A stretch of 64,000 bases of DNA from Tribonema minus. Lineage: Eukaryota > Sar > Xanthophyceae > Tribonematales > Tribonemataceae. A model generated the notes under the pieces. That model did not search any database. It was not told where the DNA came from and was given only the letters and a program-made list of their open reading frames with translations. This document shows positions 144-61,138 of this stretch, in pieces (the stretch's first letter is position 1; each line of letters starts with the position of its first letter). The translations under genes and the position numbers were made by a program. Location of the stretch: positions 124,001 through 188,000 of the forward strand of contig JAFCMP010000120.1 of NCBI GenBank assembly GCA_017506865.1. The letters run 5' to 3'.

Positions 144-3100
144 ATGTCCATCATCCCTCCACATTTCGGTTCCTCTCCTCGTAGTAGGCCCAGCACAGTG
201 GAAGCTTTAGTTTCCTCTGTTTTCGACAGCAATGGTGGGGCACCTCCTGCACCGGGACAGCACGCACCTTCCAGGAAAAAAGGGTTCAAGGACTGGAAGA
301 GAAGGGTGGGCGAGTCTACGCTGCAGGCGATGGGTTTGGCGAACCCCAGCAATGACGAGAACTCAGCCAGCCTAGAGGCTCCTTTGGCCGAGTTCAATCA
401 AACCCGCGACAACCTGGCGCTGATGCAAAAGCAGGTGAAGGCGTACATGGTGGCGGTGGAGGCGGAGTTTACGATGGCGCAGCACCTGACGTTTCTGCAC
501 GCGCCTCACACGGGGGATACGGCTCAGTTCGTGGAAGCAGCCCTGGCGAAGAACCCCGTGCACGAGGCGCTGATGAAAGGGGTAAGTTTGCGGCTATACT
601 GCCATGAAGCTAGACTCATGGCCATCAGCATTCTTACGAATTGACTACAATGCTGACGTGTCCTAATGCAACCACGCAGCGGCTGCTGACAATCATGAGT
701 GCACTGAAGCATAGTGGAGGCATACATAAAGATTGCCAGATGCCATCACCGATACCTTCTCCTGCGACTGACGGCTCAGGCACGGCAGTGCTGGCCACGT
801 TAAGCCTGACCTGATGCACCAAAACGAGCAGCAAACAATGCTCTACATTTAAAGATTGTGCAGCCAGAACATCAGCTTCAACACCGCAATACACCTAATG
901 GTTCGAGCACCGTGATCGCAGCAGAGAAAATGGCGACGCATGAAGTCAGCGTAGCGCAGCTAAGCCGGCCTGTCCGCACAGCCAGAGTGTCCTGCCAAAG
1001 CTGTTGTGACGCCTTGCTGTCTGTCTCTTTCCAACAACACGCTTGTGGCGCCATATCACTTTGCGGACTTCACATGAACCCGTGTGCGGCAGCCGCCCTG
1101 TGGCACCATCACGCTGTTGAAGCGCGCTCAACAGGCGCTTTTGTGCCCTCTTGTCTGCAGCATGCACACAGGCGGCAGCCCGAGTGGCTGCATGCAATGT
1201 CGCCTGCATGCAATGGCTCTGCATATCATCGCGCACCGCTGCGCTCGCCTGTACCGCATGCTGCATCATCAGCACTCGGACGGGGAAGTCAAATACGACA
1301 ATGTGCGGCGCAGCAGAGAGGACCACAAGCCGCACAGCTGACCGCTGCCACCGCCCCTTGCATGGTGCGCCGCACTGCCGCCGCTGCCGCCGCCGCCATC
1401 GCGCAGATGCGCACGAGTGGCCGTGCGTGCTGTAGGCGATTCTCTGCACAAGAATGACATGCTCACCTCATCTTGAAACGCGATGCTTGTGGCAGTGAAG
1501 TTCAAAAGTACCTCAGCGTGGCGCGCGGAGAGTCGCAATGCCAACCAACGCATGCCGCTTCGCCGCCGCCGCCGCCGCCGCTGCTGCCTGCGCAGATGCA
1601 CGAGTGGCTGTGCGCGCCGCTGCAGGCTGTGCTGGCCTTCTTCAACGAGAGTGATATGCTCACCCCGTTCACTGCGACATTGCCCATATGGCAACCAACT
1701 CACAGTTCACTCCTCGTGCAGCGCCGAGAGCGTCACAATGCTGACCGCCGCGTGCCGCGCCGCCGCCGCCGCCGCCGCTGCCGCTGCTGCCGCGCGCGCA
1801 GATGCACGAGTGGCTGTGCGCGCCGCTGCAGGCAGTGCTGGCCTTCTGCGACGAGCGTGATACGCTCACCCCGTTATGCAGTATCACCCCTGTGGCAGCC
1901 AACTGACTGTGCACTCCGTGTGCAGCACCGGGAGAGTCGCAACGCTGACCGCCCCATGTCGCGCCACCGCCGCCGCCGCCGCTGCCGCTGCTGCCGCGCG
2001 CGCAGATGCACGAGTGGCTGTGCGCGCCGCTGCAGGCCGTGCTGGCCTTCTGCGACGAAGTCGACGCTCTCACCAAGGCGCGCGCCGCGCTCGTTCTAGA
2101 CTACGACCACCACAAGCGCAAGCTCGCGGCGATCGCGCAGCGCATCGCCGCCGCCGGCGGCAGCGGCGGCGGCGGCGGCGGCGGCGCGGCGGCAGCGGCG
2201 GTGCGGCGCGCGTCTACGCTCGACGCTGATGAGAAGGATCTGACGGCGCGGCAGGCGAAGCTAGATGCGACGACGGCGGACCTGAGGGGCGCGACGACGG
2301 AGCTGCTCGCGCGCCTCGCGGCGCTGGCGCAGGTGCACTGCCAGCTGCACGAGTCGGTGAGTCACTCACTTGAAGTACTCCACAATATAATACTACTTCG
2401 ACTCGTATCTTGGAGACGAGTGCACGCCTCGCGCTGGCGCAGGTGCACTGCCAGCTGCACGTGTCGGTGAGTCCCCCACTCGAACACTATGAAGTAACTT
2501 CAAGAGTTATGTACATTTTTACTCTGACTCCTGTCTTGGAGACGATTGCGTGCCTCGCGCCGCTGGCGCAGGTGCACTGCCAGCTGCACGAGTCGGTGAG
2601 TCACTCACTTGAAGTGCGTCAAGAGTAGTACAATTCTACTTCGACTCGTATCTTGGAGCTGCTCGCATGCCTCGCGGCGCTGACGCAGGTGCACACTGCT
2701 GCGTTGCACGAGTCGCCGAGTCACCTGCTTGACCACTTCAAATGCATTATTTTTGTCCATGTAGAAGCTGCTGGCACCCCCCAGGGCGCTGGCGCAGGTG
2801 CACTACTGCCAGCTGCACAAGTCAGCGAGCCACCTGGTGGAGCACTTGAAGTATGTACTTCGTGTCTGCTGGCGCGCCCCGCGGCGTTCGCGCAGGCGCA
2901 CTAACCCCCTAACCCTAATCCTAACCCTAACCCTAATCCTAACCCCAGGTGCTGCACGACTCTTTGAAGTCACCTGCTCTCAGCACGCGTACTTGAAATG
3001 ATGGTGCATCACAAATCGCCAAGTTGGGTGCGCATGGACCATTCTCTGATGATCGCGCAGCTGAGATGCTGTCGCAGATGTACTGCCAGCTGCGACGCAT

Positions 3101-6100
3101 TGGTGCGTCACACTCTCGAGGATGCGACTTGAAGCACAGAGGACCTGAAGACGCATCTCGCAGCGGCGGCACAAGCGCATCGCTAGCCGAGCGGGCCGCA
3201 CGCACACGTCGCTATCGGCCGTGCAATGCGCTCCCCACACTCACATGGTGCAAACTCCCACATTCCGGCAGGTGTGCCTGGTGGCGTACACGGAGTGCAC
3301 ATGCGCAGTTTTAACACTGAGTTTCGCCTTCACATGCAGCAGAAACTTCTTGTCACAGTCCTCACCTTCAACGTGATGAAGTTTCAACTTGCACACGCGA
3401 TGCACACGTCAGCACATTCAAGTTCAAACTGAAGTTACAACGCCCCGCACAGCACAGCCTCCCACGTTCCCGCAGGTGTGCCGCGGCCCGGCGGCGTGCA
3501 CGGCGTGCGCATGTTCAAATTGCAGATGATAAAATTTCTAAATTTAATTTCAGCTTCACATGTGGCGCACACTTCATGTCAACTTCAAGATGAAGTTTAA
3601 ATTCACGTGCAAACGTCGTTTCAACTACATGATGAAAATTCAATGTCCCGCACGCGGCACAACCTCATATGTGCCCGCAGGTGTGCCGCGGCCTGGCGGC
3701 ATGCACGGCGTATCGCGCTGCGGAGGCGGCCACGCCGCTGGAGGTTCACATGCGGCACACACTGCACATCAACTCCAAGATGAAGTTTGAACTTTGCACG
3801 CGACGCGAACGTTATTCAACTTCCTTTCAAATTGAAGTTTCAACATTCCGCGCGGCACAAAGTTCGCGTGCCCGCAGGTGTGCCGAGGCCTGGCAGCGTG
3901 CACGGCGCACCGCGCCACGGAGGCGGCGGCGCCGCTTGAAGTTGGCGGTCTGCTGGCGGCGCGCGACGTCGCGGCAGTGCACTTCAACTTCAAGATGAAG
4001 TTCAAACTCTACGCACGCGCGCCGCAAACATCGTTTTAACAAGCATCCGAAACTTTACGTTCCCACAGGTGTGCCGCGGCCTGGCGGCGTGCACGGCGTA
4101 CCGCGCCGCGGAGGCGGCAGCGCCGCTTGAGGTCGGCGGCCTGCTGGCGGCGCGCGACGTCGCGGAGTGCGTCGCCGCGATGCGCGCGTGCGCGGAGACG
4201 GACGGGCGCGCCGCGATCCCCGCGGAGCAGGAGCTGTGCGTGCGCGACGCACTCGCCGCCGCCGCGGACGAGGCGCGCGCGATGCAGGTGCGACGAGGAG
4301 CGCTGCTGTGCAGCCTGCCTTAAGAACGTTCATACGCTGAGCGTTGCGGCGCTGCAACGTGTGCACGCTTTGCGCCATGACGCTTCGCTCTTATGTCGTT
4401 CATGCCGGAGAAAGCGGCGGTCAGGAGCTGTGCGCGCGCGACGCGCTCGCCACCGCCGCGGACGAGGCGCGCGCGATGCAGGTGTGACGAGCGCTGCCGC
4501 CTCGTGCGCGCCGCTACTTCAAGTTATATCACGGATGTAGTGCACGTACGTGCTCACGGTTGTGGTGCTCGCCGCCGCCGCGGATGACGCGCGCGCGACG
4601 CAGGTGTGACGAGGAGCGATGCCACGCAGTCAACCTCAATAACGTTCATACACGGAGCGCTGCGGCGCTGGTCTCGCGCAACGACGCTTCACTCGTACGT
4701 CGTTCATGCCGAAGGTTGCGGACGAGGCGCGCGCGACGCAGGTGTGACGACGAGCGCTGCCACGCGTTGCGGTCTCGCGCGCGTCGCTACTTCAACTCAT
4801 CTAATGACATGTAGTGTACAAACGTGCGCGAGGTTGTGGTGCTGTGTCGGTACAAGGCAAGGTCAGGGCCGCCGCCGCGGACAAGGCTCGGGCGATGCAG
4901 GTGTGACGAGCGCTGCCGCGCAGTCTGCTTCAAAATGATTGTCGTACACGGAGCGTTACGGCGCTGTCGGGCGCATGCAGCGCGCGACGTCTCACTTGAC
5001 GACGCTTCACGCGTATCTTGTACATGGCGATGGTTGCGGTGCTGCTGGGGTGTGCGTGCAGCGCGCTTGCCGCCGTGGACGAGGGCTACTACAGAATGGA
5101 ATCAGGGTTAGGGGTGCATTTGCGGTTAGGGTGAGGGTAGAGCTGCCGCGGCGCGGATGAGGCGTGCGTGATGTAGGCCGGTCAGAGACTTTTGAGCCCA
5201 TACAGTGTCATCCTGGGAGCAGCTGAAGCAGCTGTAGCCGAGGCCGCTCCGGTTCAGGGTGTGGGTGAGGATTGGGGTTGAAGTTGGGAACGCCAGTGCT
5301 GCTGCATCTGACAAGTGCACCACACATGCTCACGCAAACACGCGCGCGTGCGTACAGCTCAACACCCAACCCGTCCCCTGGCAGGCAGCGTAGGCAGCAC
5401 GCCATCGTCGTCGCCGTCTGCTGCAGCTCCAGATCATACTTCAAAGCACGCACATTCCAGCACGGCTCAACACATTTGTACCTACTGTACCCTCCTTCTC
5501 CCTCCCTCGCAGGCGGCGTCAGCCACATCGTCACCGCGCTCCGCCACCGCGGCGTGCTCGCCCGCAGCAGCGGACGCGTGGGGGGACTCCGAGGGGGGCG
5601 CGCGAGGGTTCCGTTCGGGGTCCTCCGTAACCGCCCGGCGGCCGTCCGAGACGCCGCCGCCGCCGCCGCCCGCCGCCGCCAGGGGGGCCCTGTTCGGCAG
5701 GTCGCTGAGCACGTGGGACGCGCCGCCGGCGCCCGTGCGCCACCTCGTCCACTTCCTCGACGCCAACGCGCTCTACACGCGCTTCCTCTTCCGCCAGCCG
5801 GGCTCCGCGGAGACCGTCGCGGAGCTCAAGCGGCAGCTCGACGGCGGCGGCGGCGGCGGCGGCGGCGCGCTGCTGCTGCTGGAGCCCGGCGCGCACGACG
5901 CGCACGACGCGTCCGCGCTGCTCAAGATGTTCTTCCGCGAGCTGCCGGAGCCCCTGTTCCCCGCGGCGCAGTACGCCGCCGCGCTCGAGGCGGCGGCGGC
6001 GCCGGACGCGGCGGCGTTCGCGGCGCGCGCGCGCGCGCTGCTCGCGCGCGCGCCCCCTATTCACGAGGCGTGCGCGCGCCTGCTCTTCGCGCTGCTGCAC

Positions 6101-6310
6101 CGCGTGAACCTGTGCGCGACCGACAACAAGATGCCCGCGGAGAACCTGGGGATCGTGTTTGCGCCGAACCTGCTGCGGAGCGCTGACGCGGGTGAGCCGT
6201 GCGTCGCGGACCTGCAGCAGTGCATCACGTTCGTGCGGCGCATGGTCGAGGGCGCGCCGGAGGTGTTCACGGATCTGTGGAGCGGGTACCCCACGGGGGG
6301 CACGTGCTGA
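144..6310 (+). CDS. BAR domain plus RhoGAP domain protein, 4 exons, 601 aa
   Basis: Exons 144-581, 2006-2356, 4069-4287 and 5513-6310 join in frame (all junctions phase 0) to 601 codons plus TGA. Residues about 50-335 look like a BAR domain, which bends membranes. The middle holds the BAR-like string LDYDHHKRKL and is followed by a helical KLDATTADL region. Residues about 405-590 are a RhoGAP domain: FRQPG carries the arginine finger (about R430), followed by LKMFFRELPEPLF and NKMPAENLGIVFAPNLLR. The predicted role is to inactivate Rho/Rac GTPases at curved membranes, as in the nadrin/RICH family. Poly-Gly and poly-Ala runs interrupt both domains, including eight Gly in the early RhoGAP domain. 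The ATG at 144 is the first in frame. All three introns carry copies of flanking exon edges. The domain call is firm; the short exons rest on frame and BAR-like sequence. Confidence 0.85.
1390..2004 (+). repeat. Tandem copies of exon 2 start, ~205-bp unit, intron 1 of BAR-RhoGAP gene
   Basis: The acceptor and first ~65 nt of exon 2 (cgcagATGCACGAGTGGCTG, true ATG at 2006) recur at 1591-1664 and 1797-1869, with a weaker copy near 1401-1432. The spacers between copies also match each other (GCC-rich runs, 'ctcacc', 'gagagcgtcacaatgctgacc'-like text), so the whole ~205-bp unit was duplicated in tandem. Only the last copy continues into the conserved BAR coding sequence. Confidence 0.85.
2421..3112 (+). 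repeat. Tandem copies of exon 2 end plus donor, intron 2 of BAR-RhoGAP gene
   Basis: The last ~45 nt of exon 2 (GCGCAGGTGCACTGCCAGCT... then cggtgagt) recurs at about 2421-2467, 2552-2596, 2672-2717 and 2783-2827. Fainter traces lie near 2880-2900 and 3075-3112. The first copies keep the gtgagt donor, and similarity falls off with distance from the exon. Confidence 0.8.
2901..2946. repeat. Interstitial telomeric repeat (CCCTAA-type)
   Basis: Degenerate CCCTAA units (ccctaaccctaatcctaacc...) lie inside intron 2 of the BAR-RhoGAP gene, between two exon-edge copies. Confidence 0.9.
3262..3968 (+). repeat. Copies of exon 3 start (acceptor side), intron 2 of BAR-RhoGAP gene
   Basis: The start of exon 3 (cagGTGTGCCGCGGCCTGGC, true exon at 4069) recurs at about 3262-3300, 3473-3508, 3673-3745 and 3879-3968. 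Copies become longer and more exact towards the real exon. Each is preceded by a usable-looking cag acceptor and separated by AT-richer spacer with AACTTCAA/TTGAAGTT motifs. Confidence 0.8.
4430..5180 (+). repeat. Copies of exon 3 end plus donor, intron 3 of BAR-RhoGAP gene
   Basis: The end of exon 3 (gccgcggacgaggcgcgcgc then gatgcag|gtg) recurs at about 4430-4490, 4565-4612, 4718-4750, 4868-4910 and, poorly, 5060-5180. Several copies read gatgcaggtgtgacgagcgc, close to the real donor context gatgcaggtgcgacgaggag. Confidence 0.8.
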
Positions 6311-7358: not shown

Positions 7359-10300
7359 ATGCGGGCGGGTCTCGGTGCGTCTTCCGCCTCAGGCGGCGCA
7401 CGGCATGACGGAGCGGCCCTTGCTAGCAGGACGTACGGTCTGGCCTACATGCTGCTGGCTGCTGTCCTCACAGCATGTACAGCGGCATGGGCGCCAGTTC
7501 GAACACCGCCTGAGAGCATGGCAGTGCTGCTGGTGCTGCTCAACATCATGGCTGCGTACTGGGCAGGGCTGATCGACGAACTCTTTCGCCTCTACTTCTC
7601 ACTGCACCTGAGCCCCTACTTCGGCACGAAGGTTACCGTGGGAGCCATCCGCACATCCATATGGCTCACCACGGATGTGGAGATGACGGATGTGGCGATT
7701 GCAGATTTCCCAGAGCTGGGAGACTGGGGTCGAAACAGGGCTGCTGCAACGGATGACCTGGCATCCAGCCTCATCCACATTCGCTCGGTGAAGATGAGGT
7801 TCTCGCTGTTCAGCCTCCTGCCCTGGAGGGGCCCGGTGCGCTTCGAGTCGTGCTCGATGCAGGGCGCGACCATGCACCTGCACCAGTCAGGGGGCACGCT
7901 CAACTTCGCCTTCCTGGCCCTGGGCCTGGTCCCCAGCACCTTGGACGACATGAGCTGCAGCCGTGACGACCCCCCGTCCCGCCACTCCAGCAGGGACTCC
8001 ATCGAGCTCGACGAGCCGTCGCCGCAGGCGCTGCTGCCGGCGGTGGCGGCGGCGGCGGCGGCGCCGCCGCCCACGGCGACCCCTCCCCTGCTCCTCCGCA
8101 CAGATTCGAAGCGATCGCACCTGAACTCGCGGTTTGCGGGCGCGCTGCGCGCGCTGTCCTTCGCGCGCGCCGCCGCCAACAGCGGCTCCATGTCGGCGGC
8201 GGTGGCGGCGACGGCGAACGCGGTGACGAACGTGCAGGCGGCGGCAGACGCGATGGCAGCGAGCAGCGGCGGCGGCGGCGGCGGAGGCAGCAGCGCAGCA
8301 GCCGCCGCGGGGGGGGGGGAGGGGGCGGCGGCTGCGCAGGGGGCGAGGAGCGTGACGCCGCAGCGGCGGAATGGCAGCGGCAGCGGGTCTTTTGGGGCGC
8401 TGCGGGAGCTGGGCGAGGCGTTTTCAAAAACCTTCCAGGGGTACCTGGATCAGGTGAGAGCGGTAGGATACGCGCTCTCTCGGAGTGCGCATTTGGAAAT
8501 GATTTGGAGCTCACTGTCAAAGTGCATACAGTGAGTAGGTCATGCACTTGAACTCGGTGCTTGTGCATGTTACGCTGGCCCATGAGCACAGCGTAGCGGA
8601 CGCTGGCATGCGCTTCTGGCCAGGGGAGGGGCTTTGTGTACCGCTCGGTGATGGCAGCACAAAGACCACATGTCATGAGATGCCTCCGCTGTGTGTTAGC
8701 AAGAACTTGATGAAAGCGCGACATTACGGACGATGTGTGCCAACACGGCTCTCTGAAGTTGCTGCTTGATGTTCAATCTCAACAGCACACAGCCTCAGAG
8801 CGCCCACGCTCTGGGCGCATCATGCTCCTATCATCTCGCGACCCTGGCCTCTCGAATCCAAAGCACCGGTAGCAGCAGCCACGAGCTGCTGTGCGCCGCA
8901 GTGCGCATGTGAATTGCGCCCTCCGGTATGGGCTTCAACGAGTCATACTTTGAAGTACGCCGCAGCACAGCAGGTGCGTGAGGGAGCTCGCTGCGCGAGT
9001 GCGGGGCGGAGGCGCAGCAGCAGCGCTCATGCCCGCGCGTCATGACACCACGGACAACTGCCGCATCGCCTGCCGCGGCAGTGCGGCTGCTTGCGCACGG
9101 GAGGGGGGTGCCTCTTGCTGAGCGCTGCCCCTCATGCAGAGCGCTGCTGCTGCTGCCCACTGCGCTCTGTGTGTGTGTGTGCTACACCTCACCGTGACAC
9201 GGCTCAGGTGGCAGTTACGAGCGCTGAGCGCTGACACTCATGTCGGCGTCGCTCATCGCCGCGCAGCAGCAGCCCGTGTGATGTGCACGCTACTTCAATG
9301 CATAGTTGAAGTTTGTGTACAGAGCAGTTGGCAGCGCCACTTGGGGAAGGACAGGAGTGGTGCGCAGCCGTGTTGTCGGGCCTGCAACTGCAACATGGGT
9401 TTGCTGGCCCATGAACATGATTGCTGCGCGCTTTCTGCCAAGCAAACCTCCGCTGGATGTCCGCAAGGCGTTACGTTTGAAATGGACATCAGGGTAGCTC
9501 AACCCTAGCCCTAATTGCGGTCAAATATCTTGATGCTGGGCAATTTGCCCCCGTTCCTCAGGGTCGGCGGCAGCGGTCCGCCGCATCGACCTCACCGTGC
9601 TTCTATCTGCAGTTATGATGCTGACATGGCATTCACCATGACGATGCTCAAACCGCCCTTCCTCCCCACACACGACACACACCCAGGTCAGCGAAGCGTT
9701 CCGGCGCATCGGCCGCATCAGGCTCGTCGCGCTCGCTTTCAAAATCGGCCCGCAATCATTATGGCAATGCTCAAATTTGCAATTATGATGGCGATGCTCA
9801 CCCCCCCCCCCCACACACACACAATACCCCCTCCCCCAGGTCGGCGAAGCCTTCCGGCGCGTCGGCCGCATCAAGCTCATAGGGCGGCCGCGCGGCGTGG
9901 GCCCCCCGAAGCGGCGCCGCAAGTACATCATCGGCTCCATCCGTATCGACGACGCGTGCGTGGCGGTGGGCCCGTCCGTCTGGCGCCAGCTGCTCGGGGA
10001 GCACGTGGGGGCGGCGTTCGCGCCAGACCTGCGCGCTGTCGTGCGGCTGCGCACGCACGAGCTTGTGCGCGCGGACGGCACAGGTGAGGCGTACGCAAGC
10101 GTTCACGATGTTGTCGGGCAGTTCGGGCAGCGTTGAGACATGTACGCAGTAGCCCCTGTGCATGAGAGCCCCGCAGGGGGGGGGGGGAGGGGGGGGGGGG
10201 GGGGGGTCGCGCCGGATCTGCGCGCCGTGGTGCGGCTGCGCGCGCATGAGCTCGTGCGCGCGGATGGCACAGGTGAGAGCGCCAGCCCAATCTGCGTTGT

Positions 10301-13300: not shown

Positions 13301-13608
13301 ATCACGGCTTGGCGGCTTTGCAATACTGAGCACTGATGCCACGTCGGGGCAGATGGTGAGCGCCGTGAAGCCGGACTGACCGCGTACACTGATAGACGCC
13401 GCCGTCATTTCTGTGAACCAGTGAATGCTGCGTCGCCACGACTCATCGTCATCACCAATCCGCTGCTGCTGCTGTTGCTGCTGCCGCTGCTGCTGCCGCT
13501 GCTGCTGCTGCCGCCGCAGGTTGTGAGCGCCTTGGCATCGCTGCTTTCATCACTGCAAACGATTGAATACCCCATCACAATGACTCATTATCGTCACGGA
13601 TCTGCTGC

Positions 13609-13665
<57 letters not shown>

Positions 13666-18571: not shown

Positions 18572-18908
18572 GGTAGGTCTACTTGGCTCCGCGCAGGCAT
18601 GCGCACTGGGCGCGGGTGTGGCTGCGCTGCTGCACAGAGGCGCCAGGGCTGCGCTGGCCGCGGGCTGCTGCGCAGCGCGCTGCGCCGCCGCCGCCACGCT
18701 GTTCTGCTGCAGCCGCTGGTGTCGCTGTGCTGGGCAGCAGCAGCTCCATGCAAGCACTCACGCGCAGTGGCACAGGTGTGCCGGCGCGCCATCACGAGGC
18801 GCTGCTTCCGCGATTGCAATGATGTGGCAGCGCTTAACGTTCACGCTACGCGTCACGGCGCGCACCGGCACCGCTCGTCCACTGTGACGGCAGCCGCGCG
18901 CGTCATTC

Positions 18909-29287: not shown

Positions 29288-29323
<36 letters not shown>

Positions 29324-42347: not shown

Positions 42348-42491
42348 GACGCTTGCTGCCAGCTACCGAACTCGCTTGCTTCCGCCCCACACTACGAGGT
42401 GTCGCTTGCTGAAGCTCAAAGTTCAACATCGCATCTCTCTCTTGAAGTTTCATGTTTTTTTGTGTGAGAACGTTATCCAACGCGTGCAGAC
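42348..42491. promoter_or_regulatory. Bidirectional promoter region, NDUFB2 and the 424-aa membrane protein gene
   Basis: Only 144 bp separate the two divergent start codons, so both 5' ends and core promoters must lie here or inside the coding parts. The region is lower in GC than the exons. No TATA box is obvious. Confidence 0.6.
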
Positions 42492-48400: not shown

Positions 48401-51400
48401 TCACCGCATCTGAAGAGCTACACTCAACTTAAACATCACAACTGCCATTTCTGCTCCCAAACCATTCCTCCCGACCAGCGCCTTTGTGGATGTTCCCGCG
48501 ACTTTGACTTCCCACGACATTGACACCACAGCTGGCTTCAACGAACTTCAACACTACCCCCCCCCCCCCCCCTGTACAACCCCCCAATTGTCAGGTTATG
48601 AGGGAGGACGTCCTGGCGCTGCTCGCGCCGGACATCGATCCGCGCGTCTCCGAGGCACTGGATAGCGACGATGTTGACCTTTCACACAACTTCAACCATG
48701 CAACCTCAACTGAACTTTACCACTGCACCCCCCCCCCCCCCCCCCCCTCCCCCCGTGCCCCCCTGGGTGGCAGGTCGTGAGGGAGGACGTCCCGGCGCTG
48801 CTAGTGCCGTACATCGACCCACCAACTCCAACATGAGATTCGTGCGTCATTTCCGCCCCCCCCCCCCCCCCCCCGACCCCCTCTCCATCAACCCCCAACC
48901 GGCAGGTCGTGAGGGAGGACGTCCTGGCGCTGCTCGCGCCGTACATCTTCAACTTCAACATGAATTTCACTTGATCATCCCCGCCCCCGTGACCCCCCCC
49001 CCTCCCCCCATAAATCCCCCGCACCGTCAGGTCGTGAGGGAGGACGTCCTCGCACTGCTCGCGCCGTACATCGACCCGCGCGTCTCCGAGGTCCTCGAAG
49101 ATGAAGACGATGAGCTCGAGGAGCAACTTCAAGTCATCATGAACGGCCCCGCGGCCGCCAAGGCAGCACTCGTCGGTGCCGCCGCGTCAGTCGGCCTCAC
49201 CGCGCTGTTCTTCAAGGAGCCGGAGTGGGCGCTTATGCTCGCGCTCGTGCTGCTGGGGTCGCGCATCGTCGCGGAGTTCATCAGCAGGGTGAGCCTGTGC
49301 TTATATCAACAAATACAACAAGTGAAGTGTTTAAAACGTAGGCTGGGCTGTAGTGCATCAGTGCTCAACGAGAGTGGGCGCTCATGCTCGCGCTCGTGCT
49401 GCTCGGGTCGCGCATCTTCGCGGAATTCATCAGCAGGGTGAATTTTGAGGGTTACCATATACTTCTATGCTTCAAGTACAGCATTCATGGAGATGGTGGC
49501 ACTGTTTGACTCGTGGCCAATTGCCGCCGCAGCGCGGGCCAGGGTCGTTGGTGGAAGGCGTTTGCGGTTAACCTGACCGTGTCACCTAAAGCTCTACAAT
49601 CTTTTGACGCGTTTCCATTTTTATGAACTCCGAGTAAGCGTCGATGTAGGCTTAGCTGCGCTGTGGCAACGCTCAATTGCTGAGCGCTCATGCTCGCGCT
49701 CGTGCTGCTCGGGTCGCGCATCATGACAGAGTTCACGAGCAGGGTGAGATCGCACTCAAATCAATGCATCGAGAGTCTAATGAAGGAAGCGTAGTGTTCA
49801 TGTAGGCTGAGCTGTAGTGCATCAGTGCTCAACGAGAGTGGGCGCTCATGCGCGCGCTCGTGCTGCTCGGGTCGCGCATCGTGGCGGAGTTCATGAGCAG
49901 GTTGTTTGGGTTAGGGTTAGGGTTAGCCTAACCCTAATCCTCATTGTGCACAACGGCGCGCTTTGTTGCCTTTGAATAACTCAAGAGTAGGGTTGCACAA
50001 AGACGTACTTGGCCACACAAATACGGCGTATTTGGAGCGTATTTGGCAACCAGGAATACTTCTTGAGCAAACCTCAACATAATCAAATGCTGCGCGAAGG
50101 GCGTATTCGTGGGGCATGTGGTGAGTGTGCTCGATTCTGAGTATACAGTCCACCACAAAAAAGGCACTTGAACTCAGAAATAAACTTCAAAATACCCTTT
50201 TTCGCAACCCTACTCAAGAGCAATACACAGGTGCACGATGTCCAAGGTACCAGAGCGTGCCGTTAGGAGATGTGCTTTTGTCATTCGTGTTTTCTTAGGG
50301 TTGTGATTAGGGATGGGGTTACATGCTCACTTTATGATGCCCTCAAGACATTGTGCACCTGTGTATTGCGCTGTTGCTATTTTAATGGCCCTGCGCTCTC
50401 TGCCTTCTTTGCGGTTCTACATCTGTGTCCACGTTTCAAGGATGGTGGCGGCGGGCGCGGCTACTTTGACAACAGCTCGCAACTCATCTCAACACTATAG
50501 AACACATCATGCGCCAGCGTGTTTGTTTCATGTTAAAATTTGTACTTCTATTTGAACCCTTCAGGTTTGTTTTCTGAGCTCACTGCCTCCCGCCCGTACG
50601 CGCGCCTCAGATGGTCGCCTGGCTGATGATGCTCAGGGTTAGGTACGCAACTCATTGAAACTCATTGAACCCGCGTGTACATGTGTAAACCGTGTTTCCT
50701 GCTCTCACTGCCGCCCGCCCGCATATGCGTTCTCAGATGGTGGTCTGGCTAGTCGTGCGCAATGGCAAGGCGCACTGGCTGCGCAAGTCCCAGCTGGCGC
50801 TGCTGCACATGTTCCTGGGCACGTTGGGCTGGTTCTATCACGAGGATGCAGGTGTGCGACATTTCATATATGTTTCCAATCAAAAACCCTCTTTGACGTG
50901 CGTACAGTGTAAACAAGCTAAATCAAGAGAATCTCAGCGCACTGGACGAATACCAGCTCATGTAGGTGTGACCGAAGTTTCTGCATACCACGAGGACGCA
51001 GGCGCGTGCTATGTATGAACTTTGAAATACTTGATATAATTCCGCTCAAGCACTCTGCGTGACATGTGCAGCTACACCACAAGGCACTGCACCGATCTAG
51101 GCACACACGAAGCATACCAGCTCATGTACGTGTGAGCTGCACTTTCGTAGTGTAGGTACAAAACATGAAGCGATCGTCGATGTTCATTAAGGCACTTTCT
51201 CAGATGGCAAATGTACAGTCTGGCAGCAAGGCACTGGTCGATGCGCTTTTTCGGGCTCTACGTGAGAATTATACCCAAGTAAGTACACGCGTTGTACACC
51301 TGCTGCTGCTCCTGCACTGGAGGCCAACCACACGAGGTCACAATCTCCGCAACAACTACACAGAAATACCCTATGCTGGTTCAGAGACGAGTGTTGCCTG

Positions 51401-53015
51401 GAAGCCCTTTTTGCCACCAAAACAGCTTCTACCAAATAGGCTGCTTCTGACAGTAGTCTGGGATGCTGCCAAAGTGTATGCTCACCATGTATGTATGTGA
51501 CTGTATGCACATGAACACTGTTTCTCATGATGTGCATGCTGCGTGAACCAGCGCTTTTAACCAGTATATCCCAGATATTCGTGACGTATACATATACCTC
51601 AAAGTATCTATATTTGCAGTACAGCGTATATACAGCACGGGCTGGTACGGCGAAGTGTGCTGCGGGATGGTCTGCAGCTACAGTGCAGCATGCGCTCTGG
51701 TGCGCAAGCTGCTATGCTTCGCGCGCATGCTGCTGTACTACATGAGTATGTACAAACTCACCCTTCTGTGAAACCGTGGGTCAGCAGAGTGGCTCACGGG
51801 TAGGGCTAGGGTTAGACGAAGGGACGGGGCTGCACATGCATCTCGCGCACAAGCTGCTGCCCCCCTTTCATCTGTGATGACCCGCTACATGCTAGCCTCA
51901 GGGTTAGGGCTGATGCGCCCTTACAATCTGCGATCACCTTAACCCTAACCCTAACCCCATGTGCTAGCCAGCGTGATCCTCTCGTCAGCGGTTCGTCCTG
52001 ACGCTGGTACAGACGACGAGAGCCTTTTTTTGGGTTAGGGTTAGGGTTAGGGTTAGGGTTAGGGTTACTACTTGGGGCACCTGATCTGCTGTGGCATCTT
52101 GCGCATGTGTTCACAAGCTGGCACAGATGACATGTGACCGTGTGGGGCGCCTGTGGCCAACTCCAAGGCTGACCCTAACCCTCACCCTAACCCTGAGGCG
52201 CGTTCAAGTGCGGCTACAGCGCACTGCATGGCGCCGCCGCGGATGCTGCCGAGGCTCAGGGTTACAATCAACCCTAACCCCGACCTTAAGGTCAACCCTA
52301 ACCCCTAAGATAAGGCAACCTCAAGTTTCACTCGCAGCACGCACAGCACTGTAGTGCCTTCGAAAGGAGAAACGACGCATGCCCGCCGGCGCAATCTCAC
52401 TTCTGCCGCTCAGCCGTTGCTGCGCAAGCCAGGCTGCCTGAACACCCCGTGTTCACGCACATACGCTCTAGCGCTGCCATGTTCTGAAAGGCTAAGACTG
52501 AGCGGCATGTGAGCACATCTCATTGGTGCAATTTCACTCCTGCGCGCTCAACCATTGGTGAGCAACCGCCGCTGGCGCTGGAATGTGAAACTGAGCACTG
52601 CTGCTTCTCATTGCACTTTCCGCCCCCCCCTCAGGCATGGCGATCACGGCGCTCTGCAAGCCCTTTCATGAACATCATGCTGCAGGGCGACTGCGCTGTT
52701 GTATCGCTCAAGGCCAACTTAATTTCACCTTGAAGTACAGTTACTTCAATATTCCATAGTGAATTCTAATTGCATGCAATCCTCCCCGCGCTCACTCCTG
52801 CCTGCTCAAACCGCCGCTGAGCAACTGCTTAACGCCGAGCGCTGCTGCTTCTCGAACCCCCCCCCCCCCCCCACCTCCAACCCCCAGGCATGTGGATCAC
52901 GGCGCTCTGCAAGCCCTTCATGAACGTCATGCTGCAGGGCGACCGCGCGCTGCACGAGCTCGCCACGCACACGCAGAGCTTCTTCTCCATGCCGCCTATC
53001 GAGAAGATGGCCTGA
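42492..53015 (+). CDS. Multi-pass membrane protein of unknown family, 6 exons, 424 aa
   Basis: Exons 42492-42860, 44736-44948, 47396-47587, 49031-49288, 50737-50851 and 52888-53015 join with phases 0,0,0,0,1 to 425 codons including TGA. Hydrophobic segments lie at about residues 77-100 (VVPVVAPVFFSLKALFGLSI), 105-120, 212-240, 303-342 (two, split by FKEPEW) and 345-378. Exon 2 encodes a basic, probably coiled helix (ARRTLKEREDTGARVREQEA). The C-terminus reads FFSMPPIEKMA. I do not recognise the family. Agreement of phase at all five junctions, plus arrays of edge copies beside nearly every exon, supports the model. Another small exon in the 1.9-kb first intron cannot be excluded. Coding sequence fills about 12 percent of the span. 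Confidence 0.75.
43709..43745. repeat. Interstitial telomeric repeat (CCCTAA-type)
   Basis: A near-perfect CCCTAA run in intron 1 of the 424-aa gene. Confidence 0.9.
44205..44640 (+). repeat. Copies of exon 2 start with poly-C, 424-aa gene
   Basis: The exon 2 start (CACTGGCACCACCTCGTCGC, true exon at 44736) recurs at about 44211-44240, 44350-44430 and 44573-44640. The last two are preceded by C runs of 10-20 nt. The same 'gcgcgcggcgacgctgcagc' and 'ggcaaggtccaaaccctga' text follows. The true acceptor is preceded by C26 (44702-44727). Confidence 0.88.
44957..45210. repeat. Interstitial telomeric repeats interleaved with exon copies
   Basis: TTAGGG-type runs at 44957-45020 and 45130-45210 flank the first copy of the exon 2 end. 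Copy, telomeric run and next copy abut directly. Further short runs follow at 45292-45322, 45448-45495 and 45598-45640, each right after the donor of an exon copy. Confidence 0.9.
45020..45770 (+). repeat. Copies of exon 2 end plus donor, 424-aa gene
   Basis: The exon 2 end (GCGCGCGTTCATGGCCAAGC then agggagcag|gtgcgca) recurs at about 45022-45130 (near full length), 45250-45290, 45395-45450, 45548-45592 and, weakly, 45728-45765. Most keep gggagcaggtgc at the donor. Confidence 0.9.
47045..47290 (+). repeat. Copies of exon 3 start, 424-aa gene
   Basis: The exon 3 start (cgcagCTGCGCGCGCTGGCG, true exon at 47396) recurs almost perfectly at 47207-47287 over ~80 nt and more weakly at 47048-47075. 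Confidence 0.9.
47670..48372 (+). repeat. Five copies of exon 3 end plus donor, 424-aa gene
   Basis: The exon 3 end (GCGCGCGTGCAGCTCGCCAT then ctactgcggcaag|gt) recurs at about 47678-47730, 47820-47898, 48005-48056, 48150-48222 and 48318-48370, period 140-175 bp. Copies 2 and 4 extend 75 nt into the exon. The first four keep ggcaaggt at the donor position. Confidence 0.92.
48593..48955 (+). repeat. Copies of exon 4 start with poly-C, 424-aa gene
   Basis: The exon 4 start (caggtCGTGAGGGAGGACGT, true exon at 49031) recurs at 48591-48663, 48772-48820 and 48903-48950. All are preceded by C-rich runs (for example C20 at 48728-48747). Confidence 0.92.
49365..49905 (+). repeat. Three copies of exon 4 end plus donor, 424-aa gene
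   Basis: The exon 4 end (CTCGCGCTCGTGCTGCTCGG ... catcagcagg|gtga) recurs at about 49370-49440, 49685-49744 and 49840-49902. 'gagcagggtga' or 'cagcagggtga' is kept in the first two. Confidence 0.9.
49501..49617 (-). repeat. Dispersed ~115-bp element, copy C (inverted)
   Basis: The reverse complement aligns with 27108-27222 over its whole length (ggaaacgcgtcaaaagattg ... ggccacgagtcaaacagtg) with more substitutions. It lies between two exon 4 end copies, so it inserted into or was carried with the array. Confidence 0.8.
49907..49940. repeat. Head-to-head telomeric repeat junction
   Basis: 'gggttagggttagggttagc' is followed at once by 'ctaaccctaatcct', the arrangement left by joining two telomere ends. 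It abuts the donor end of the last exon 4 copy. Confidence 0.9.
50603..50640 (+). repeat. Copy of exon 5 start, 424-aa gene
   Basis: 'ctcagatggtcgcctggctg' copies 'ctcagatggtggtctggcta' at the acceptor of exon 5 (50737), with the upstream 'cactgcc(t/g)cccgcccg' also shared. Confidence 0.8.
51800..52310. repeat. Cluster of interstitial telomeric repeats
   Basis: TTAGGG or CCCTAA runs lie at about 51805-51816, 51898-51908, 51939-51958, 52032-52068, 52165-52196 and 52258-52308, in both orientations, in intron 5 of the 424-aa gene. Confidence 0.88.
52630..52705 (+). repeat. Copy of exon 6 start, 424-aa gene
   Basis: 'caggcatggcgatcacggcg' through 'atgctgcagggcgactgcgc' copies the start of exon 6 (52888) for about 65 nt, preceded by a C run and a cag. 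Confidence 0.9.
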
Positions 53016-55643: not shown

Positions 55644-58600
55644 TCAGTGTTGCCCAACCTCCCCCGTGTCTCCCCTCTCCATTCCAACTTCAACTTGCTT
55701 CGCACCCCCGCCGCCCTCCCCACAGCCCGTCGGCACCGCCCCTTCCGCCGTCCCGTCTCGAACGCCCCCTGCAGAGCCCCCCGCTCTCCCCTTCGCGCAG
55801 CCCGTTCCGCCGCGCTGCGCCGCCGTCGCGCTGCCGGCTCCGCCCTCGACATCGCTCAGCGTATCGTGCTGCTGCGCCGCCGCCGCTGTGGCCGCCGCAG
55901 CGTCACCGGCGCCACCACTTTCGTCGTCCTTCAGATCCGGCAGCAGCGGTGCGTTATTGCTTCTGAGGGCCGCTGCCGCTGCCGCTGCCGCCGCCGCCTC
56001 CGCCGCTGCCGCCGTGTCATTGGCGCTACCCTCCTCTGCGTCTTTCAGTTCCAGCAGCAGCGGCGCGTGATCGCTGCCGAGGCACGCGGTGGCGCGCTCG
56101 TAGCCGCCGGAGCCGAGGACGTCCGCGTGCGCGATGCGCTGCGCCAGGGACTTCGACACGAGCAGGAAGTCGATGCGCATGCCCTTCCGGTAGTACTTGC
56201 CTGGGGGGGGGATGGGAGGTTGGGGGCGGGGGGGACGGGGGGGGGATGCCGTTCGCGTCGGTTGGTGTTTGCATGCAATACTCGGAGTGATTCGCTTCTG
56301 TATTGATGCGCATCGATGTACTCTCAAGTATGCATGCAAGTGATGCATGTACGGCATACTGTGCTTCTTAGTACGCACAGGGGTACGTTGCGTGCGTGTG
56401 CACGTATGCAAACTACCACGCATGCCCGTATGACGCAAGCCACCCAACAGTGTCACGAGCAGCCAACTTAGAATTAAGGTTGGGGTGAGGGTGAGGGTTT
56501 AGGTTACCCTCCCCCCCCCGGTAGGTCAAATTAAGTTAGGGTTAGGGCTAGGTTTTAGGGTTAGGGTTAGGACTTAGATTACCCTCTCCCCCTCAGTAGG
56601 CCCAGCCGTCGCCGCGCGTGAGCAGCAGGCGGTTTAGGGTCGGGGTCAGGATTAATTTACCCTCCCCCCTCGACAGGTAGGTCCATTCAGAAGTATTAGG
56701 GTTTGGGGTTAGGGTCGGGGCTAGATTACCCTCTCCCCTTCGGTAGGTCCATCAAGGGAAGGGCTAGGGTTTAGAGTTAGGCTTAGCTCACCCTCTCCCC
56801 CTCGGTAGGTCCAGCCGTCGCCGCGCGGGTGCAGCAGGCGGTACGCGTCCACCAGGCCCCCTTCAGCCAGAATCTGCTTGAAGCGCAGGCGCTCGTTGGG
56901 GGTGAAGCCCGGCTGCCCCCTGTCCCCCTCGTTCGCGGCCGCGCTGCGAAACGCATAGATGCATACAAAGACAGAAGGAATTCAATTGCAGGGCATTTCA
57001 TCAGGTGCTTGGAGGCTGCGCGCGTCGAATCCGTGAAGTGCCCACCAGGTGGTGCTGTGCAGTGCAGACATGCATCGATCATCAGATCCTCGTCTCCGTC
57101 ACCACTTGAATTGTTGATAGGCGGGGTGAAGCCTGGCTGGACTGTCCCCCTCGTCCGCGGCCGCGCTGCGCCACGCATTTGCACATACGGAATTCAATTG
57201 CAGGGCAGTTCATCACGCGCGGTTGCACGCAGACAGATAGGATTCAATTGCACGGCGGTAAATCAGGTGCGCAGAGGGGGTGAAGCCCGGCTGCCCCCTG
57301 TCCCCCTCGTCCGCGGCCGCGCTGCGCCACGCGCGAATGCACACACAGACAACATTTAGTTGTAGGACAGTTGATCAGGTGCACAGAGAATGTGCATCAG
57401 AGCCGCTCAGGTGTTCCTAGGCATGCCTGCACACATCTGCAGAGCCTCGGCTGTCACTCGTGTACCGTTGATGATACATACATCTGCTTATTGCAATGAA
57501 AGAGATTGTGCAACGGTGCATCATGCTTGGTCGCATGCGGCTGAACAAAGCTCCAGCTGCCCATGCTTGTTGACAGCAAGGGGGTGCGGCGCCCCTAGCC
57601 CCCCTCCGGGTTTGTTGCACGGCACTGCAAATACTTTCAGTTGGTGAGTCAATGTTGCACTACGCATCATGTCACGGCAACGACAACATGCCAGATTCTA
57701 GCATCAGAGTGGCAAGAGAAGACGCCTGCCGCACGCACAAGGCCATTAACTTCAACTTCAACATGTGTGCATACAACGCCCACGCCGCCGCTGCGCCATG
57801 CGTTCACCAGAAGCGCAGCAATGCCATCAACTTCACCTCAATCTCCATGCCCACAGCGCTGCCAACTCACAACAACTGCCGCGCGAACCAGTCCGGGTGG
57901 CTCACATGGCGCGCATCGGCGGTCGCGTTGAAGTTGCCCGCGCACACTCTCGCATGCCCGCGTAACACCATCAACATCTACTTCATGTCTGAACTCTCAA
58001 CTTCCATGCAGCGTGCGGCACACCTGCAGAACGCCACTGCTGCGGTGACCAACCTCAAACTCAATCAACTTCAAGTTCAGAAAACTTCATGTTCAACCCG
58101 TAGCCGCGACAACAAGCTCACCAGAACTGCCGCGCAAACCAGTCCGGGTGGCTCACGTCGCGCTCATCAACGGTCGCGTTGAAGTCGCCGACGCACACGA
58201 CGGCGCGCCGCGCGCGCCGCCGCGCCGCCAGCCACGCGCCCAGCTGCGCGTCCCACTCGCGCCGCCGCGCGTACGACGCCTCCGTCGTGCCGTTGTTGGG
58301 CGCGTAGACCGCGAGCACGTCGAAGGCGCGGTAGCGCAGCACGATGACGCGGCCGTCGGCGTGATGCTCGTGCGCGCCCGCGCTGCTGCCGCCGCTGCCG
58401 CCACTGCTGCCGCTGCCGCCGCCGCCGCGGCCGCTGCTGCCGCCGCTGCTGCCGCCGCCGCCGCCGCTGCTGCCGCTGCCGCCGCTGCTACCGCCGCCGC
58501 CGCCGCTGCCGCCGCTGCTGCCGTTGCTGGCGCTGCTGCCGCTGCTGGCGCCGTCGTCATCAATGCTCAGGTTGTAGCGCACGGCGAGAGGCGTCACGCC

Positions 58601-61138
58601 CGCGCCCTGACGTATGAGGCATGCTGCGCGCGGAGCAGCGATGCGGAGAGGGGAGGCGAGGGCGGCCATGGGGTGGCACCAGTTCTCCACGACACCACGT
58701 CTCATGTCAATGAGTTCATTGTCACCGTGAATGCATCACAAGAAGTGGTAATCGTGATGCGGCGGGGTGGGTGGGTGGGGGGGGAGCATGAGGGGGTCGC
58801 ATCAGTTCGCCATGACCACACGTGAGATGTGGCTGAATGAATCCGCCGTCACCGTGAATGCATGACTGAGCTGGTAAGCGTTGTGGGTTTATGAACCCGC
58901 TGCGCCATGGTATCTCTACATGGATGGTAAGCGCCATGGCGCTGATGCCGCTGTCCCGACGCGCCACTCGGCGCAGGAGGCGCGCCGCCGCCGCGACCGG
59001 TATCAGCGCTCAGGCTGCGGCTCGTGGACGGCAGCAGCGCTGCGCCGGCGCTCGCGAAGATGGCGCAGCTGCAGTTGCTTGTGAGTGGGACAGCGCGCGC
59101 ACACGCACTGTATCGGAGCACGTGAATTCAGGCTGCCGGTTGTCGCGGCGCGGAGCCTCTGCGAAGACCTCGTGCCACCTGCTGTCGTCATCAGTGCTCA
59201 GACAGTAGGGCAGCAGTGCGAGTCGGTGCGCGCGCACATTCAGTACTTCTGCGGTGTGGAGTGGCCCATAGGTGGGCTGCAGCGGCACTGTTCAGCGTCA
59301 CCGTGCGCCAAGCGCGACACTGCTGTCGGAGTCCCTCAGCGCCACCTGGGGTAGAAGTGCAAGTACTTGACGTAAGGTGACGCACCATTGCACACTTCCA
59401 GTCGGCGTGCACGCGCCGCACCCCATCCTCCACCTCAGCACCCAGTTCAACTCCCATCAGCGAACCGCATCGCGAAATTTACTACTGCTGTGGAGTGCAT
59501 GCCAGGCAACGGTCACGATGCAGTTCTGTCAGAGCCACGCCGACCAGCGTCGTTGTGCGTAGGCAGCGCAGACAAACTTCAACTGTCACACAGCGCGACA
59601 ACAAATTCCCAGCACGGAGCACTGGCACGACAAGCGTCAGGACAAACTTCAAGCATCAGGGCCGACGCACCGGAGCCCGCGTAGTTCTTGTCTGCGAGCA
59701 ACCGCAGCACCGCGTACAACAAACTTCCAGTGTCAGTCACAAACTTCAACTTTCAGGTGACGCACCGGAGCCCGCGTACTTCTTGTCCGCGAGCGACCAC
59801 AGCACCGCGTACCCCCACTGCCCCACGCTGTTCCTCAGATTCGCAACGTCCGTCCGATCCGCGGCGGTTTCGCAGCGCACGCGCCCCCTGTCGCGTGGCC
59901 GGCCGTCCCCCGGCTTGCTCTTGGGGGGCGCGTGCGCGGGCAGGCGCGCCTCCTGGATGAAGAACAGGTCCGGCGCGTTCTCCTGCAGGAACGCGCGGAT
60001 CGCGCCGCCGCACTGGCTCTCCGGCTGCACGCGCGCGGCGGCGGCAGCGGCAGCGGCGGCGGCAGCGGCGGCGGCGGGGGCGCGGATGCGTGTCAAGGGA
60101 TATGCGTCGGCGGATATGCAAGTGAGCAGGCGGATTGCGCTGCCGCACTGGCTCTCCGGCTGCGCGCGCGCGCAGGCGGTGGCAGCGGCGGCGGCGGCGG
60201 CGGTGGCGGAGGCGCATGAGTGAGTCCCAGGATATGCGTCGGGGGGGATGCAAGCGAGCAGGCGGTTGTGTGCGTCAGCGGCAACGGCTCAGCAAGCAGG
60301 GGGCCTGTGCCACGCTCGCTGACATGGTGCGTGACGACTCTGGCGCGCACTGGCTCTGCGCCTGCGCACGCGGTGGCGGCGGTGGCAGCAGCAGCGGCGG
60401 CGGCAGCTGCGGCGGCGCGAGTGTGTGTCATAGGCTGTGTCGGCGGAAGCGCGAATGAGCATGCGCGTGCACGTGCATAGAGCGGCAAGCCTGGCAGCGA
60501 CGGCTCAGCGCGGGGGCGGCGCGCACTGCGCTCACTGCCGTGACATCAGGCGCGGCCGGCACGTGCAATTCGTGGGATGCGGCCATTCAGCAAACAGCGC
60601 CGCGGCGGCGTGCGTAGGTAGTAATGAGATAAATTGGTCGGCTGGGCCACACCTCAGTCAGCAGACTCTCGTCAGCGAGTTGTCGCCTTGTTAGCAGTGG
60701 CGATATGCTGCAGCACTGTCGCTGCCTGTTGGGACCCACTCAACACAAGATGCTTGGCGACTGGTAACAGCGTCTGCTGTGCCTTATCACGGAAAAAACA
60801 GAGTCGTCTACACGGCGGTGTACTGGGGATGCAGTGCCGCATGATGCAACAAGCGCGCGCCTTCATTCACTGCAAATCAAATTATTTATCATTCCCTTGT
60901 ACACTGTCACAATGCGCAGCTGGACCAGCCTCACCCGCAGTCGCACGCTGAGCCCATCGGCGTTCCAGGTACAGATTATGCGGGGATCGCGCCCTGCGAC
61001 TTGTCTGGCTCCCTCGCCTTCAGCAGCCGCTGCCGCTGTTGCCGCTGCTGCCGGCGCCGCTCCTGCCTCAGTCCGTTGACGCTTTGCAGGCGGCTCCGCA
61101 GTCTTGCCAAACATATCCGCTATGCTCCGCTGGCTCAT
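55644..61138 (-). CDS. AP endonuclease, exonuclease III/APE family, 5 exons, 557 aa
   Basis: On the minus strand exons 61138-60935, 60024-59766, 58623-58122, 56943-56792 and 56200-55644 join with phases 0,1,2,1 to 558 codons including the stop. ExoIII motifs appear in order: ICTWNADGL (Asn59), DLFFIQEARL (metal-binding Glu93), KKYAGS, VLAVYAPNNG, VVCVGDFNATVDERDVSHPD, GLVDAYRLLHP, KGMRIDFLLVS, and LGSDHAPLLLEL with catalytic His417. It cuts DNA at abasic sites in base excision repair. The start MSQRSIADMF resembles a PCNA-binding PIP box and is followed by a basic KRQR patch, which suggests a nuclear form. A ~60-residue Ser/Gly run interrupts the fold after LSIDDDG, and an Ala/Gly-rich tail of ~140 residues follows. 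An upstream in-frame GTG extends the frame, but the ATG at 61138 is preferred. Confidence 0.92.
56590..56760 (-). repeat. Copies of AP endonuclease exon 4 end plus donor
   Basis: On the plus strand 'taggcccagccgtcgccgcg' and the following ggcggt (56596-56635) copy the exon 4 end and donor (56792 side). Shorter 'ctcccc...gtaggtcca' remnants lie at 56685-56702 and 56733-56752. TTAGGG-type text separates all of them. Confidence 0.8.
57115..57345 (-). repeat. Two copies of AP endonuclease exon 4 start
   Basis: The acceptor and start of exon 4 recur at about 57120-57180 and 57268-57338 (plus-strand text 'gtccccctcgtccgcggccg then cgctgcgccacgc'), on the 5' side of the true acceptor at 56944. Confidence 0.88.
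57875..57930 (-). repeat. Copy of AP endonuclease exon 3 end plus donor
   Basis: Plus-strand 'gaaccagtccgggtggctca' and 'ggtcgcgttgaag' copy the end of exon 3 (58122-58190) about 240 bp downstream in gene direction. Confidence 0.88.
58375..58560 (-). repeat. Coding GCC/GCT microsatellite (Ser/Gly tract) inside the AP endonuclease
   Basis: An impure triplet repeat of about 185 bp encodes roughly 60 Ser and Gly residues between LSIDDDG and HADGRVIVL. It stays in frame, so it is an insertion tolerated in a surface loop rather than an intron. Confidence 0.85.
59648..59705 (-). repeat. Copy of AP endonuclease exon 2 end plus donor
   Basis: Plus-strand 'gacgcaccggagcccgcgta' with following 'ttcttgtctgcgagc' repeats the exon 2 end and donor (59760-59800) about 110 bp further along the gene. 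Confidence 0.88.
60125..60370 (-). repeat. Copies of AP endonuclease exon 2 start
   Basis: Plus-strand 'cgccgcactggctctccggc'-type text at the true acceptor (60001-60030) recurs at 60140-60172. A weaker copy lies at 60345-60372. Both are followed by GGC/GGT-repeat sequence. Confidence 0.8.

Follow-up and report, generated by a model that had tools for sequence, protein, structure and literature searches.

The lengthening of introns is usually ascribed to transposons. In tandem exon duplication and mutually exclusive exons, exon copies lie in the neighboring intron, and intronic minisatellites are tandem arrays. A closely related system is tandem genomic duplication, an accepted route of intron gain for which one paper tabulates 188 events (PMC3443670) and another describes a potato RdRp case in which an intron–exon segment was duplicated (PMC4974935). 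In this system, direct tandem copies of gene segments bring splice sites along with them; the outcome is a new intron, usually from one event per gene, and the classic model uses an exonic AGGT segment. Introners likewise change intron content genome-wide (PMC9860276).

In the DNA of Tribonema minus analyzed here, introns contain echoes, which we define as partial copies of an exon edge inside the adjoining intron. As in tandem genomic duplication, these are direct tandem copies of a local segment that bring splice sites along. However, no new intron arising from an AGGT-bearing exonic segment was found; the copies sit within established introns, where they end at the splice site already there, and they would extend these introns at either end by serial half-exons in many genes. 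Unlike introners (PMC9860276), each copy matches its own exon and a dispersed family is absent. The far matches within the window include no near-identical sequence shared across the introns of many genes, and one piece of an exon 2/intron echo, searched against the whole genome, matched only in the window. Mutually exclusive exons differ in that none of the 100 copies considered here spans a whole exon and coding constraint is absent, whereas intronic minisatellites differ in that the unit here is anchored on an exon edge and its splice site. In a search of titles and abstract openings that left most subscription journals outside its range, serial half-exon arrays extending introns genome-wide were undescribed. 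The Tribonema arrays are best explained by tandem genomic duplication in a new form, repeated on a massive scale. An earlier note on this DNA had proposed a distinct mode of intron growth, which is apt for its degree and its placement, with existing introns extended at both ends, whereas the mechanism is close to tandem genomic duplication. Tribonema offers an intron-lengthening route without a dispersed element, the steps of which are visible and can be counted.

Gene models and samples

Tribonema minus is a yellow-green alga, a stramenopile, and its genome assembly comprises 158.18 Mb in 554 contigs. The window, i.e., the whole stretch of 64,000 nucleotides analyzed, corresponds to positions 124001–188000 of contig C120 (230,504 bases). 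We modeled six window genes, five on the plus strand and one on the minus strand, with 24 introns and 51 junctions. Three models were derived from T. minus proteins (eIF3H, which is P0001, as well as P0121 and P0122), and their splice sites were set manually; the other three (the SMP-like, GP63-like, and nuclease genes) were built by reading in this analysis. Once all copies are skipped, the joined exons of the latter three read open throughout. A search for relatives of P0121 found P0121 alone among 8000 scored candidates.

The second sample consisted of kinesin genes on other contigs, the exons of which were positioned by profile search. Here, 36 introns were joined via splice score and reading frame, and we kept the 26 that had a splice score of at least 5 and differed in length by no more than three residues (52 junctions), giving a combined sample of 103 junctions and 50 introns. 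Four unselected 10-kb loci at fixed positions served as a further sample. A first kinesin comparison with paralogs left unmasked was uninformative as a control.

Exon edges are copied into their own introns

The earlier note had called for a genome-wide self-match of introns against their flanking exons and a comparison with shuffled exon–intron pairs; here, both kinds of comparison were made on the window and the samples. Self-comparison of the window is dominated by near (<3 kb) direct matches, with 151 of these against 3 near inverted ones; far matches comprise 7 direct and 18 inverted. Near matches were absent from a composition-preserving resample of the window. We then aligned each exon edge (up to 150 nt) to its own intron and counted a copy at a score of at least 36. 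The window yielded 74 copies at 31 of 51 junctions and the kinesins 26 copies at 12 of 52, which together make 100 copies at 43 of 103 junctions. As the swapped control, the best score of 20 controls from other genes' introns was taken for each junction. The own intron exceeded this value at 50 of 103 junctions (33/51 in the window and 17/52 in the kinesins), whereas about 5 would be expected by chance. When the own intron was reverse-complemented, 1 of 103 junctions passed, compared with 43 in the direct orientation, and among 28 pieces of exon interior a single, G-rich piece passed. At least one copy is present in 20 of 24 window introns and 9 of 26 kinesin introns. The presence of exon-edge copies in the window introns is thereby confirmed.

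Several figures of the earlier note can be set against these counts. Its estimate of more than 70 copies agrees with the 74 counted in six window genes, its roughly 25 arrays hold in substance, and genes on both strands are indeed involved. It had assigned copies to all of seven fully rebuilt genes, whereas six genes were modeled here. Arrays at nearly every junction, however, were an overstatement in view of 31 of 51 junctions in the window and 7 of 38 in kinesin loci unselected for echoes. Similarly, introns are not simply built from copies, as near direct repeats make up 37.7% of their bases.

Beyond the window, near direct repeats occupy 9.3, 17.1, 13.2, and 9.0% of bases in the four unselected loci, where they were counted without assignment to exons, compared with 26.7% in the window, and local direct repeats are present in all four. 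Among kinesin introns lying wholly in loci fetched before any echo had been seen, 5 of 19 contain copies, at 7 of 38 junctions. Local direct repeats are thus a widespread feature, whereas exon echoes, though common on other contigs, are not universal; the window is richer in echoes than the other loci seen. The kinesins and the repeats in the four unselected loci support the earlier statement that unrelated genes carry copies, also on other contigs. A model-free test in the four unselected loci, in which 14 of 25 merged repeat segments had a strong splice-like site, was too weak to use; random segments of equal length had such sites at rates of 0.35, 0.41, 0.53, and 0.31 per locus, or about 9.5 of 25 when summed.

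Echoes in the individual genes of the window

In the following, the score of an exon edge against its own intron is given first and the control maximum second, and features are on the plus strand unless stated otherwise. The RhoGAP gene P0122 (330–6310; located by tblastn of P0122; Pfam RhoGAP, 2e-34) has a first exon ending at 581 and further exons at 2006–2356, 4069–4287, and 5513–6310. The start of exon 2 is echoed at 1368–2005 by 3′ echoes with a unit of ~190–204 nt (101 vs 30), of which two lie above the score threshold and a third is visible in the self-match, and its end is echoed at 2422–2853 by 5′ echoes with a unit of ~113–117 nt (86 vs 27). Exon 3 likewise has 3′ echoes of its start at 3255–3980 (157 vs 30) and 5′ echoes of its end at 4422–4921 (105 vs 28), the latter with two spacer types that alternate by eye.

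The gene at 7393–15897, which we label SMP-like and for which a Pfam search gave no match, has a single open frame across six joined exons (one ending at 8453, then 9840–10083, 11325–12301, 12635–13072, 13892–14044, and 15489–15897). Its 3′ echoes comprise one copy of the exon 2 start at 9638–9725 (58 vs 27), one of the exon 4 start at 12432–12526 with 90.5% identity (119 vs 26), several of the exon 5 start at 13360–13789, one of them above the score threshold and the rest seen by eye (40 vs 33), and one of the exon 6 start at 15288–15348 (45 vs 28). The 5′ echoes of the ends of exons 2 and 5 lie at 10196–10624 (99 vs 27) and 14151–14537 (126 vs 33), respectively. The best preserved array of all, at 15950–16636, consists of 5′ echoes of the exon 6 end with a unit of 158 nt and a TRF score of 992 (189 vs 28). 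In the eIF3H gene (20212–23744), joining exons 20212–20297, 20512–21278, and 23555–23744 gives P0001, the T. minus eIF3H. A 5′ echo of its exon 2 end is found at 21388–21434 (85% over 47 nt; 49 vs 24) and a 3′ echo of its exon 3 start at 23382–23426 (93% over 45 nt; 70 vs 24).

The partial GP63-like gene (26062–33420; exons 26062–26196, 28198–28451, 29341–29397, 30628–30781, 32090–32253, and one beginning at 33342) has an open joined frame and a weak Peptidase_M8 match (E = 0.0097) that falls below the cut-off. Exon 1 is accompanied by 3′ echoes of its start at 25575–25912 (56 vs 27) and 5′ echoes of its end at 26345–27060 (47 vs 27). One 3′ echo of the exon 2 start lies within the intron 26197–28197 (48 vs 24) and one weak 5′ echo of the exon 2 end within the intron 28452–29340 (38 vs 23). 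Four 5′ echoes of the exon 4 end, with a unit of ~113–127 nt, occupy 30808–31267 (141 vs 27), and 3′ echoes of the exon 5 start are located at 31700–31934 (77 vs 22). Two further arrays belong to genes outside the six models and to none of the junction counts: a 3′ echo array at 37555–38055 (unit ~200 nt; TRF score 882; 92.5%) and a repeat array at 40429–41565 that probably consists of echoes, probably on the minus strand.

The P0121 gene (42492–53015), located by tblastn, has exons ending at 42860, at 44736–44948, 47396–47587, 49031–49288, 50737–50851, and 51620–51745, and beginning at 52888. The start and the end of exon 2 are echoed at 44065–44415 (3′ echoes; 86 vs 28) and 45028–45657 (5′ echoes; 180 vs 33), and one of the latter is included in the database protein. 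Exon 3 has a 3′ echo of its start at 47012–47292, with one copy above the score threshold (142 vs 24), and five 5′ echoes of its end at 47681–48377 (142 vs 24), two of which are included in the database protein. Three 3′ echoes of the exon 4 start are present at 48556–48947 (94 vs 24), three 5′ echoes of the exon 4 end at 49372–49904 (112 vs 26), and a 3′ echo of the exon 7 start at 52628–52696 (91% over 69 nt; 95 vs 24).

On the minus strand, the gene at 55661–60024 belongs to the exonuclease/endonuclease/phosphatase family; its Exo_endo_phos match improves from E = 5e-5 in one reading frame to E = 1.5e-12 in the joined exons without a Gly/Ser-rich stretch. Exon 1 has 3′ echoes of its start at 60130–60426, one above the score threshold (50 vs 25), and a 5′ echo of its end at 59633–59717 (85%; 74 vs 28). 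The end of exon 2 is represented by a 5′ echo at 57866–57947 (87% over 82 nt; 103 vs 29), and exon 3 by two 3′ echoes of its start at 57123–57382 (87 vs 25) and 5′ echoes of its end at 56480–56751 (82 vs 22).

Composition of the copied unit

The copies end at most 3 nt from the exon edge in 89 of 100 cases, and they include a median of 45 nt of exon (5–95% quantiles, 23–101 nt), in substance the 40–110 nt of exon plus splice site described earlier. Their identity to the exon has a median of 0.91 (quartiles, 0.87–0.95). Copied splice dinucleotides are intact in 76 of 89 cases (GT in 47/55 and AG in 29/34), which is about the expectation from this median identity. Most intact copied donors match real ones in strength, with 39 of 47 reaching at least the tenth percentile of the real-donor scores (medians, 9.2 vs 9.4; p = 0.056). 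Copied acceptors fall short of the real acceptors they derive from (medians, 6.5 vs 7.9; p = 0.015), although the scoring matrix had itself been trained on real sites, and 19 of 29 reach at least the tenth percentile. An entire exon is spanned by none of the 100 copies, nor by any of the 16 from exons shorter than 150 nt, a test that has low power because the copies are short. The far ends fall at varied exon positions with no AG/GT preference on the exon-completing side, and the idea that echoes are cassette exons flanked by AG and GT was therefore rejected.

On the intron side, 84 copies could be tested by local alignment; 63 of them share flank homology with another copy or with the real site, and the other 21 do not. 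Full tandem units were recovered for 20 of 101 exon-edge matches; where copies are in tandem, the unit is about 110–200 nt. In most copies, the copied unit comprises the exon edge and its intron flank, and the flank homology together with the full units therefore points to tandem duplication across the junction. With a strict gap cost, the copies seemed to stop roughly 10 nt beyond the splice site (medians of 9 and 12.5 nt), a reading that was discarded because local alignment found flank homology in most copies.

Copies decay as non-coding DNA

Mismatches between exon and copy, all unpolarised, are distributed over the codon positions as 123:106:268. Constraint on the copies was considered from this third-position excess and rejected, since polarising assigns the excess to the exon lineage. 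Changes on the copy lineage, polarised by older copies, number 33:32:42 (p = 0.40), and changes on the exon lineage, where all copies agree against the exon, number 2:1:14. Stop codons occur in 9 of 100 copies, compared with 11.0 ± 2.9 expected at random, and frameshifting gaps in 21 of 100. In view of the absent codon-position bias and the random rate of stops, the copies decay as non-coding DNA, as the earlier note had described them, while the exon kept changing under constraint, mainly at third positions. The choice of reading frame relied on openness and on GC content at third positions, with more than one frame open in 82 of 103 exon pieces; some frames may be wrong, an error that would blur the third-position signal rather than create it. 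At third positions with A or T in the exon, the copies differ at 26 of 62 and 52 of 90 sites, which may reflect a G/C-to-A/T drift of the exons since copying. The arrays make earlier exon states testable, as the copies appear to retain older third-position states.

Copies, intron length, and placement

Copies are present in 20 of 21 introns of at least 1100 nt and in 9 of 29 shorter ones (p = 5e-6), and the rank correlation of copies with intron length is 0.69 (Spearman). Longer introns could merely offer more room; however, the copies crowd near their own exon, at a median of 281 nt from the donor and 185 nt from the acceptor, which speaks against this.

Repeat families that include an exon edge account for 44 of 57 (77%), a count biased upward by duplications inside echo arrays being counted as edge families and biased in the opposite direction by at least one family that was scored as intron-only and misses the 12-nt cut-off by one base. 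If duplications with these unit lengths struck at random and left the mRNA intact, 30% would be expected (p = 5e-13), and more for introns that were once short. At this cut-off, 13 of 57 families lack exon sequence. Of the 30,624 intron bases, 37.7% belong to near direct repeats, compared with none of the 13,733 window bases outside gene labels. In the 9,868 bases labeled as unassigned genic, such repeats cover 34.4%, giving 14% for all non-assigned window DNA; we use this cautious figure because the label was given partly for the repeats there.

Origin of the copies

We consider it likely that serial short tandem duplications across exon–intron junctions, the best explanation of the echoes, produced the arrays. 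A stretch straddling the junction, in which typically 25–100 nt of exon are combined with the splice site and part of the intron, would be duplicated in tandem, repeatedly, with the outermost donor and acceptor still joining the exons in frame. Each event would be close to neutral because the outer splice sites would still yield an unchanged mRNA, and would lengthen the intron by one unit. The resulting inner copy would be half an exon with a single splice site, which exon definition would make the splicing machinery ignore and which would then decay by substitution, indels, and spacer turnover. The cause may be a process of break or nick repair, perhaps linked to transcription. This explanation builds on the direct copies, their placement at exon edges, the flank co-duplicated in most of them, their neutral decay, and the link to intron length. 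Counting against it are a step in identity between exon and intron parts, the 21 of 84 copies without flank homology, the edge excess, and the weaker copied acceptors, which need not follow from strict neutrality of splice signals. A bolder reading, in which junction-aimed duplication coupled to transcription or splicing progressively lengthens introns genome-wide by half-exons at both ends, spares intergenic DNA, and leaves introns as an archive of earlier exon states, is put forward only tentatively.

The step in identity favors exon-templated copying or gene conversion, with the exon as master rewriting nearby copies or being copied into the intron during break repair. Exon parts are more alike than intron parts (0.90 vs 0.70 for exon–echo pairs and 0.858 vs 0.675 for echo–echo pairs), and a neutral simulation predicts an intron-part identity of 0.73–0.84, above the observed 0.675. 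Moreover, introns 4288–5512 and 47588–49030 alternate, by eye, two dissimilar spacer types while their exon parts agree. The flank homology seen in 63 of 84 copies, however, means that the unit was mostly not the exon alone, and indels and the constrained exon reference account for part of the step; we regard conversion as an improbable origin of the arrays. Together with short intron-side breakpoints and fast spacer turnover, exon-master conversion may nevertheless contribute to the step. If tandem duplication were instead uniform over the genome, edge copies would merely survive and be recognizable through the conserved exon reference. The 13 of 57 families without exon sequence at the 12-nt cut-off and the random far ends agree with such uniformity, but the 77% of edge families against the null of 30% (p = 5e-13) makes the plain version of random duplication plus tolerance insufficient. 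The repeats also cover 0 of 13,733 bases outside gene labels, or 14% with the 9.9 kb of unassigned genic DNA added, against 37.7% of intron bases, and uniform duplication is accordingly judged unlikely.

That the copies serve as alternative or mutually exclusive exons is very improbable, even though the database proteins P0121 and P0122 take in echoes as coding and 39 of 47 intact echo donors reach the tenth percentile of real donors, because the copy lineages lack codon constraint, stops occur at a random rate, frameshifts affect 21 of 100 copies, and a whole exon is spanned by 0 of 100 (with low power). An introner or transposon family filling the introns can be given almost no weight: a dispersed element of 100–120 nt is present in six copies in 228 kb, but echoes match their own exon and not swapped introns, and the far direct matches of the window are this element, telomere-like tracts, and one low-complexity match. 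Assembly artifacts have a negligible chance of explaining the echoes. Although tandem arrays are prone to misassembly, the copies differ from the exon (quartiles, 0.87–0.95) and from each other, and they occur in several contigs of an assembly in which contigs reach ~2 Mb. The arrays make it testable whether DNA is preferentially duplicated at junctions in some lineages.

Splicing and gene prediction

Among near-identical sites, the used donor in our models is the 5′-most and the used acceptor the 3′-most. As a copy has a single splice site, exon definition would be expected to ignore it. Runs of at least 8 nt are confined to 5′ intron halves if composed of G (11:0, in 5 of 50 introns) and to 3′ halves if composed of C (0:35, in 16 of 50 introns), and sense TTAGGG tracts lie mostly in 5′ halves (17:3). 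This intron polarity may help splicing to pick the outer sites, and the arrays make testable how an outer site is picked among equally strong copies.

Echoes corrupt gene models. In the P0122 database protein, an exon 2 echo is treated as an additional exon, and that of P0121 contains three echo-derived stretches, with a translated spacer between two of them. The window yielded three database proteins, and because two of these include echo sequence, echoes contaminate the predicted proteome.

Other repeats in the window

Telomere-like TTAGGG/CCCTAA tracts of at least 11 nt number 39 in the 50 introns (e.g., 30207–30291, 31967–32029, 44958–45019, and 52032–52067), with none in 13.7 kb of other window sequence. 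Such tracts as filler at duplication joins were considered and rejected, as 1 of 27 lies within 25 nt of an echo far end compared with 13% expected. The motif TTGAAGTT/AACTTCAA occurs 74 times in 104 kb (the window and the four other loci), against 2.1 expected. TTGAAGT leans to 5′ intron parts and ACTTCAA to 3′ ends, and of the nine TTGAAGT motifs at most 120 nt from a real donor, four sit 12–13 nt past it; the motif is likewise common outside introns (0.94 vs 1.36 per kb). The dispersed element is located at 16777–16874 (+), 27105–27223 (+), and 49500–49618 (−) in the window, and its six copies include some on three other contigs. Finally, a 69-nt unit is repeated three times at 24325–24531, in frame within an open reading frame, and looks like an exon-internal duplication that keeps the frame.
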